Origin: Bacteroidota bacterium | Lineage (GTDB): Bacteria > Bacteroidota > Bacteroidia > B-17B0 > Aurantibacillaceae | Assembly: GCA_021323535.1 (NCBI GenBank) | Contig: JAJONO010000024.1 | Coordinates: 1-64,000 of the forward strand | Reading direction: 5' to 3' | Length of the DNA stretch: 64,000 bases | Position numbers and translations under genes: made by a program | The notes under the pieces: model-generated | The model's database searches: none | Told to the model about the DNA's origin: nothing | What the model saw: the letters and a program-made list of their open reading frames with translations, nothing else | Shown here: piece after piece, positions 32,797 to 33,380 of the stretch | Layout of the letters: every line of letters starts with the position of its first letter | Position numbering within the stretch: the first letter of the stretch is position 1

Positions 32797-32872
32797 GGTG
32801 CCTTAGCTCAGTTGGTAGAGCAAAGGACTGAAAATCCTTGTGTCGTTGGTTCGATTCCGACAGGCACCACCA
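32797..32872 (+). tRNA. tRNA-Phe (GAA)
   Basis: All cloverleaf parts can be traced: acceptor GGTGCCT pairing with AGGCACC, D-arm with AGCTC/GAGC, anticodon stem AAGGA/TCCTT with loop CTGAAAA (anticodon GAA at 32830-32832), TTCGATT in the T arm, discriminator A at 32869 and an encoded CCA at 32870-32872. The 3' half is also part of a large inverted repeat with the sequence that follows (see 32865-32929). Confidence 0.96.
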
Positions 32873-32929
32873 TAAAGCAGAAAGCCCTTCGAGTTACTCG
32901 GGGGGCTTTCGCTTTATGGTGGTGTCATG
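32865..32929 (+). repeat. Left boundary hairpin overlapping the tRNA-Phe 3' end
   Basis: CACCACCATAAAGC (32865-32878), which is the tRNA 3' end plus six bases, pairs perfectly with GCTTTATGGTGGTG (32911-32924). Inside, AAAGCCC (32881-32887) pairs with GGGCTTT (32903-32909), so the whole element is a long near-perfect stem of 21 pairs. It could act as an intrinsic terminator for the tRNA, but a downstream arm complementary to the tRNA end is unusual. 32881-32929 is repeated in modified form at 33331-33380, after the GIY-YIG gene. Confidence 0.75.
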
Positions 32930-32965
32930 AAGCGTAAGTGCCGAAAACGTTTTCTGCTTCATGAC
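32924..32965. repeat. Second inverted repeat before the GIY-YIG gene
   Basis: GTCATGAAGC (32924-32933) and GCTTCATGAC (32956-32965) form a perfect 10-base stem. A 12-base perfect palindrome, GAAAACGTTTTC (32943-32954), lies inside the loop. It starts on the last base of the stem arm of the preceding hairpin. Confidence 0.65.
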
Positions 32966-33018
32966 ATTTTTCGTTAAATCATTCTGACTTCATTTGCATA
33001 TGAGTATATATTTGATCC

Positions 33019-33330
33019 ATGCCTCTTCCTTTTTGTGTTTACGTACTTTTTAGTCAGAAAGACCATTTACTTTATATTGGTTATACTTCCAATCTTGAAC
33101 GGCGGATAAAATCACATAACAACGGCGAAAACATCAGTACGAAATCAAGAATTCCACTCGAATTAATTTTCTGCGAATTTTACTTATTTAAAGAAGACGC
33201 TCTTGACAGAGAAAAGTATTTTAAGACCTCTATGGGAAAAAAGGCTATTAAACTTATGCTAAAAACCACTCTTGATAAATTGGGATACAAAAACATAAAT
33301 TTGAAAAAGTTAGTTATTTTAACCCATTAG
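33019..33330 (+). CDS. GIY-YIG nuclease family protein
   Basis: A 103-residue single-domain nuclease of the UPF0213/Slx1-like GIY-YIG family. The visible motifs are VYVL in the first strand and LYIGYT in the second, then ERRIKSHN (catalytic arginine) and the glutamate in DREKYFKTS, so the active site is complete. There is no DNA-binding extension, so specificity is unclear. An exact -7 box, TATATTTG, lies at 33007-33014, and the ATG follows five bases later, so the message is probably leaderless. The gene sits between a tRNA-Phe gene with hairpins on its left and a matching hairpin directly after its stop codon, as if it were the cargo of a small mobile cassette. Confidence 0.88.
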   Translation: MPLPFCVYVLFSQKDHLLYIGYTSNLERRIKSHNNGENISTKSRIPLELIFCEFYLFKEDALDREKYFKTSMGKKAIKLMLKTTLDKLGYKNINLKKLVILTH

Positions 33331-33380
33331 AAAAACCTCTCGAGTTACTTAGGGGTTTTTCGCTTTATGGTGGTGCCATG
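33331..33380 (+). repeat. Right boundary hairpin, modified copy of the left one
   Basis: Begins on the base after the GIY-YIG stop codon. AAAAACC pairs with GGTTTTT, so the stem of the left copy (AAAGCCC/GGGCTTT) is preserved by compensating changes on both sides, while the loop CGAGTTACT is identical. TTTCGCTTTATGGTGGTG is also the same in both copies. GCTTTATGGTGGTGCC at 33362-33377 is an exact reverse complement of 32863-32878, the tRNA-Phe 3' end plus six bases. It has terminator form for the GIY-YIG transcript. Confidence 0.75.

Follow-up and report, generated by a model that had tools for sequence, protein, structure and literature searches.

Introduction

Integrative elements that use the 3' end of a tRNA gene as their attachment site keep this tRNA whole and carry a tyrosine or serine recombinase. 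REPINs, i.e. paired inverted hairpins, are non-autonomous and are moved by a dedicated nuclease that the genome encodes. For the hairpin elements of mitochondria, we know of no linked Slx1-like gene and of no arm matched to a tRNA. These double-hairpin or hairpin-forming elements are likewise small mobile hairpin repeats but, unlike the element treated here, they are organellar (PMC2800124).

Two groups of GIY-YIG nucleases are also relevant. SegB of T-even phages is a free-standing GIY-YIG homing endonuclease with cuts mapped inside tRNA genes and the motif RAWTSGAAC (PMC13096335), which we ourselves read as the T-loop consensus of tRNAs in reverse complement. The nuclease studied here has the GIY-YIG domain and the linkage to tRNA genes in common with SegB; however, SegB is a phage gene for which we know of neither flanking hairpins nor a tRNA-copying arm (PMC13096335), and matches of our nuclease to PHROG endonucleases are weak (best E 5e-4). 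The standalone prokaryotic Slx1-like/UPF0213 family is conserved, mostly vertically inherited and presumed to act in DNA repair (PMC1564403). Our nuclease shares its minimal single-domain GIY-YIG fold (PDB 1zg2, 1ywl) but, unlike the family as described there, belongs to a clade that is patchy, tRNA-linked and mobile.

Here we analyse a locus in a 64,000-nucleotide stretch of Bacteroidota DNA, called the window, in which a tRNA-Phe gene is followed by hairpins and a short GIY-YIG gene. We consider it quite likely that this locus holds a member of a family of very small mobile elements that take the exact 3' end of a tRNA or tmRNA gene as their insertion site, share the orientation of that gene and leave the tRNA whole, being probably worked by their own GIY-YIG nuclease and having hairpins as their ends. 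Judged by sequence, the locus is one case of a recurring arrangement: throughout the Bacteroidota, relatives of the element are lodged at the ends of tRNA genes of many kinds and of tmRNA genes.

Results

Hairpins that continue the tRNA-Phe gene

The features of the locus are collected in table 1. By the ARAGORN boundaries, positions 32863-32878 comprise the final ten bases of tRNA-Phe (CCA included) and six more. As the earlier note had claimed, GCTTTATGGTGGTGCC at 33362-33377 on the plus strand is the exact reverse complement of this segment, and a repeat search also recovered the one-mismatch copy at 32911-32926. With three or fewer mismatches, GCTTTATGGTGGTGCC occurs in four places against 0.36 expected; a chance origin of the repeat is ruled out by the shuffles, none of which (0/100) reaches four matches.

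Table 1. Features at the tRNA-Phe locus of the window and the basis on which each was assigned
Feature	Position	Strand	Basis
tRNA-Phe(GAA), target gene	32797..32872	+	ARAGORN; Rfam RF00005, 72.6 bits
Hairpin H1	32873..32926	+	sequence reading, covariation, tRNA-specific pairing
Hairpin H2	32923..32966	+	sequence; same two-hairpin layout in relatives
Standalone GIY-YIG nuclease ORF, 103 aa, Slx1/UPF0213-like	33019..33330	+	Pfam, alignments, AlphaFold, fold matches
Second, truncated H1	33332..33380	+	repeat comparison; matching layout at tRNA-Met of G002

The 3' end of tRNA-Phe, CACCACCA, is itself the outer base of the H1 stem. H1 has a terminator-like core and a bulged A within its constant motif, TAAAGC-A-GAAA ... 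TTTC-GCTTTA (across the family, the likewise bulged AAGYAGAA...TTCRCTT). Its outer right arm reads TGGTGGTG, which is the 3' end of tRNA-Phe in reverse complement, i.e. the stem runs on into the tRNA. H2, TGTCATGAAGCG...TCTGCTTCATGACA, repeats the H1 core motif in inverted form, with the bulge on the opposite arm. Beyond the gene, the truncated H1 has lost most of its left arm and bears a further copy of the 3' end of tRNA-Phe in reverse complement (GGTGGTGCC); the two H1 copies form a 49-nt direct repeat, 84% identical and 451 nt apart (32881-32929 and 33332-33380). We read the distal copy as an older one that was probably displaced by the present element, whose right end in the window is not clean. 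In a known-RNA test of the locus with Rfam, the tRNA alone passes the gathering score, and neither H1 nor H2 reaches that of any Rfam family.

That the nuclease gene lies between tRNA-derived inverted repeats, as first proposed, is true of the window but not general, since elsewhere both hairpins sit between tRNA and gene. Likewise, the repeats bounding the gene are real, but the far one is an extra truncated H1, and the inverted tRNA copy is a part of H1 that is matched to each target; of the hairpins, the proximal and distal copies had been listed and the inverted H2 behind the proximal one had been missed.

Presence and absence of the gene at the tRNA-Phe locus

Comparing the locus with and without the gene, as the earlier note had proposed, revealed a difference: across 29 genus loci (window included, defined by coaX together with tRNA-Phe, some of the genomes being incomplete), the nuclease gene is found in two and absent from 27, i.e. 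it is neither fixed nor ancestral there. The second case besides the window is genome G034 (L028), where the gene is broken off after approximately 57 aa. Genome G002 has the hairpins at this site without a nuclease gene (L071), and the remaining loci have ordinary terminators or other inserts. At one such tRNA-Phe locus, a 501-aa serine-recombinase-like ORF (L058:1512-3017) reads into the tRNA from the opposite strand, and DNA similar to this ORF, judged by DNA similarity only, lies downstream of tRNA-Phe at L056, L057, L065 and L072.

A predicted Slx1-like nuclease linked to one type of hairpin

The window ORF matches the GIY-YIG domain PF01541 with an E-value of 6.6e-16 and consists as a whole of this single domain; Y8, Y19, G21, R29, H33 and E65 are invariant in an alignment of 20 sequences, in which the catalytic residues are thus conserved. 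Among solved structures it has sequence matches to 1zg2 (6.9e-6) and 1ywl. Its AlphaFold model (pLDDT 90.1) finds its best Foldseek matches, none with an E-value below 0.001, in Slx1 and the UPF0213 protein BH0048 (1zg2), which rank far above I-TevI and UvrC. By its domain, tyrosines, arginine and glutamate, the protein is thus a predicted member of the GIY-YIG superfamily, and the sequence and fold matches place it in the Slx1-like/UPF0213 branch rather than with UvrC or I-TevI.

Searched with four relatives of the nuclease, GTDB genomes yielded 25 nuclease loci, with an intact tRNA upstream in 15, a tmRNA in four (ARAGORN), a remnant tRNA or tmRNA end in four and neither in two. Wherever such an end exists, a hairpin abuts it (23/23, some in variant form). 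The arrangement is absent in one relative (L293) and one distant match (L298). A second scan, with a 20-sequence profile against 395 genomes of the class, added five clade members (L303, L307, L308, L309 and L311), and all five have a tRNA, tmRNA or remnant 3' end followed by H1, as had been predicted beforehand, two of them being accepted by eye as the search pattern was too strict. Outside the clade, none of 17 relatives has the H1 motif, yet ten of these adjoin tRNAs. Within the genus, the strict tRNA-H1 pattern occurs in four of five genomes with the clade nuclease vs 3/35 without it (p = 0.002), and its backward control gives one match in 87 genomes; in three genomes of the genus, tRNA-H1 hairpins are present and no clade nuclease was detected.

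No relative of the nuclease was found in viral_contigs, and the plasmid and phage sets contain one distant match each, the phage match being weak; on these results, a viral or plasmid origin was rejected. At L286 (CP034120.1, labelled Glaciecola amylolytica, Gammaproteobacteria), a tRNA-Phe and its element are nearly like those of Fluviicola, which reflects either a mislabelled genome or a transfer across phyla.

Other GIY-YIG subfamilies at tRNA genes

The association with tRNA genes extends beyond the window clade. In 40 genus genomes, 50 of 84 GIY-YIG matches lie within 700 nt of a tRNA, where about two are expected, and all 50 are on the tRNA strand. A partial copy of the same tRNA lies beyond the gene in 36 of the 49 testable cases vs none of 49 if the tRNA is read backwards. 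The Arg-CCT, Val, Met, Arg-TCT and Arg-CCG subfamilies each keep to one tRNA and form clades or near-clades on the nuclease tree. These other subfamilies seem to lie within tRNA genes and to make these whole again; in this wider GIY-YIG family, the window clade is the one specialised on the 3' end.

In the far tRNA copies of the other subfamilies, the anticodon arm is often replaced by a palindrome. At L030, L236, L047, L253, L167 and L269, a perfect palindrome takes the place of the anticodon arm or D-loop of the far-side copy or interrupts it; in the Val copy, for example, this palindrome is CCCGACTTTTCGTCGGG. One locus (L329, G192:C9:904800-911600) contains ten GIY-YIG copies in strict 457-bp spacing with partial tRNA-Met copies, an arrangement that reads as tandem amplification of a GIY-YIG/tRNA-Met unit.

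Near-identical copies at unlike tRNA genes

The freshest copies reside in G002, a two-contig genome in which two 549-bp copies, with the GIY-YIG gene as their sole gene, follow tRNA-Arg(ACG) and tRNA-Met and are 98.2% identical over 565 aligned columns. On both sides this unit is flanked by 8 nt of the end of the target tRNA, i.e. GGTACCAC at Arg and GGGACCAC at Met, and the DNA beyond is unlike. This evidence is strong but small, because one base separates the two repeats, and the clean 8-nt repeat comes from one genome. At tRNA-Met of G002, the newer copy separates the tRNA from an older H1-H2 remnant, which is the layout proposed for the window. Searching for exact matches, we found far-side copies of the tRNA end of 17-18 nt in L291 and L296, 13 nt in L279 and 9 nt at the Arg locus of G002; in other members this repeat is near background, most having no intact far-side repeat, and, at E<0.01, BLAST detected no long copy of the tRNA on the far side in the window clade.

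An important question is whether these genes merely home. A classical free-standing homing endonuclease gene would cut the cognate tRNA allele that lacks it and be copied by repair, without moves between non-homologous tRNAs, and the variety of targets would be due to ordinary recombination. The other subfamilies, which hold to one tRNA and leave partial tRNA copies, would suit such behaviour, as would the cutting of phage SegB within tRNA genes (PMC13096335). The window clade, however, departs from residence at one cognate site: its targets include Phe, Asn, Ala, Met, Arg, Val, Gln, Glu and tmRNA, scattered over a nuclease tree of few columns and many weakly supported forks, and G002 has near-identical copies at two unlike tRNA genes. 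For this clade, we therefore regard homing in the classical sense as unlikely.

Paired hairpins and the case for a RAYT

A second explanation takes the hairpins as REPIN-like units moved in trans by a RAYT/IS200-type HUH (Y1) transposase, with the GIY-YIG gene as a passenger. REPIN/RAYT systems (PMC3116915) resemble the window element in that a pair of inverted hairpins makes up a small, non-autonomous mobile unit and the genome has a dedicated nuclease. RAYT is a HUH/Y1 transposase, whereas the window element has a linked GIY-YIG gene, a target at tRNA/tmRNA 3' ends and a target-matched arm. The paired inverted hairpins with their conserved bulge do look REPIN-like, Y1_Tnp genes are present in 29 of 40 genus genomes, and one genome (G029) has dispersed hairpins of the same motif away from tRNAs. 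On the other hand, PF01797 has no match in G027, in G034 or in G002 with its freshest copies, i.e. a RAYT transposase is not needed, since none is detectable in G002, and the hairpin type follows the GIY-YIG clade. A RAYT or other HUH transposase as the engine was rejected on the G002 result, and the explanation as a whole seems very unlikely to us.

The dispersed hairpins of G029 (AAGCAGAA...TTCGCTT; L172, L176-L189) number about 20-30, some arranged as inverted pairs, and are possibly a REP-like offshoot. In G022, five tandem H2-type hairpins with a 41-nt period follow tRNA-Leu(TAA) (L200:1136-1325).

The outer arm of H1 matches its own tRNA

Scanning the window genome for further copies, which had also been proposed, recovered H1 after tRNA-Val (two), Leu(TAG), Arg(TCT), Arg(CCG), His, Met and a second Phe-like tRNA, the nuclease gene being absent there; the outer arms of these hairpins are mostly complementary to the end of the adjoining tRNA. 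For 28 non-redundant cases of the genus group, the mean uninterrupted outward pairing of the H1 arm with its own tRNA is 5.2, as compared with 1.6 if the arms are exchanged (0/20000 shuffles), and at positions 6-9 outward, i.e. within the tRNA, pairing is 2.18 vs 1.23 in shuffled sets (again 0/20000). With relatives added (42 loci), the covariation score is 0.307 vs 0.139 +/- 0.013 for shuffled arms (0/500), with slid controls at or below 0.114. In the column next to the fixed motif, G-C (23) and A-U (16) interchange, and the Y-R pair of the motif appears as C-G (32), U-A (7) and U-G (3); the columns of the motif were set by the search pattern and thus have no weight in the covariation. In G002, the H1 outer arms are identical at Arg, Met and Phe and match the common ACCAC alone. 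A simple terminator with incidental pairing is ruled out by the tRNA-specific pairing together with the covariation.

A related explanation, a host-domesticated terminator or processing structure of tRNAs in which the pairing of H1 with the tRNA end evolved for function and the nuclease gene is incidental, is highly improbable: the H1 core resembles an intrinsic terminator, and pairing with the tRNA end could act on pre-tRNA, but most tRNA genes of the window genome and most genus loci have plain terminators, the H1 sequence motif is conserved across orders, near-identical units occur at different tRNA genes, the same structure is found on a pseudo-tRNA end (L166) and on tmRNA, and the patchiness and the tie to one nuclease clade would be left unexplained.

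At L166 (G002, tRNA-Leu(CAA)), a pseudo-tRNA copy within an element of another subfamily has H1 at its 3' end, so tRNA ends would be targeted whether or not the tRNA is functional. Near 106557-107377 of contig C1 of G000 (L107), a tRNA-Glu is followed by a gene that by eye resembles RDD-type membrane proteins, beyond which lies another tRNA-Glu 3' end together with H1-H2. G000 contigs C138, C66 and C121 (L144, L151 and L148) contain dense tRNA arrays with unusual isoacceptors, several with H1/H2-type hairpins; for C138 and C66, an origin from a phage or mobile element is possible.

Discussion

Overall, the target specificity, the target-matched arms, the linkage between nuclease clade and hairpin type, the variation in presence and absence, and the near-identical copies at different tRNAs lead us to conclude from comparative evidence that the window element is a mobile element aimed at tRNA/tmRNA 3' ends, its movement probably being driven by the Slx1-like GIY-YIG nuclease. 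The original suggestion of a small mobile unit with a tRNA 3' end as boundary has thus held up, on account of the gene's presence in two of 29 genus loci, its relatives at other tRNA and tmRNA 3' ends, and the two copies with target-derived flanks in one genome.

How might such an element move? The unit would be ordered as H1, H2 (an inverted copy) and one GIY-YIG nuclease gene; gene-free H1-H2 pairs, which occur at other tRNAs, are comparable to MITEs or REPINs. A minimal Slx1-like enzyme would nick or cut at the tRNA 3' end and would probably require DNA structure besides sequence. Slx1 acts on branched DNA, and, by analogy, hairpins or cruciforms would be natural substrates. Because the hairpins are conserved and covarying, they may be what the machinery recognises and may also form the termini of the mobile DNA. 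The element would be joined straight after the last base of the tRNA, and its far side would be marked by a short repeat of the end of that tRNA, as seen in one complete genome. With the left arm of H1 joined to the tRNA end, the right arm, i.e. the 3' strand, may fold back and be extended on the tRNA template, or an equivalent templated step may occur. Such a fold-back step would be the simplest account of the target-matched arm and predicts rewritten arms in new insertions; since the recent copies in G002 match the common ACCAC alone, rewriting would not be immediate or not always be complete. The tRNA would remain functional, because H1 supplies a putative terminator and the element is inserted outside the mature tRNA. 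T-loop and acceptor end are common to tRNA and tmRNA, from which the range of targets would follow.

Whether this amounts to a new class of transposable element, with an Slx1-lineage GIY-YIG nuclease as transposase and only protein, paired hairpins as ends and an outer arm that is rewritten at each insertion from the target tRNA/tmRNA 3' end, so that each copy is imprinted by its target, is a point on which we are evenly divided. The element shares the tRNA 3' boundary and the whole tRNA with tRNA-integrative elements, but the 549-bp unit holds the GIY-YIG gene alone and no recombinase. Novelty is claimed on the grounds that the element fails to fit the known classes and on the open-access literature, in which we found no earlier description of the arrangement of tRNA end, mimic hairpin and GIY-YIG gene, a description in a subscription journal being possible.

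If our reading is true, the Slx1-like/UPF0213 group, usually taken as minimal repair-type nucleases, would include the enzyme that drives a widespread mobile element with tRNA and tmRNA genes as its targets. With about 100 bases of hairpin and one gene of about 100 codons, this element would be among the smallest autonomous mobile units. Its target-matched arm would be a direct trace of insertion chemistry and may reveal extension of a hairpin end on the target during integration. Furthermore, many of the short GIY-YIG genes found next to tRNAs in Bacteroidota would be accounted for by the subfamilies that lie within tRNA genes, which would also tie bacterial tRNA genes to the biology of phage SegB.
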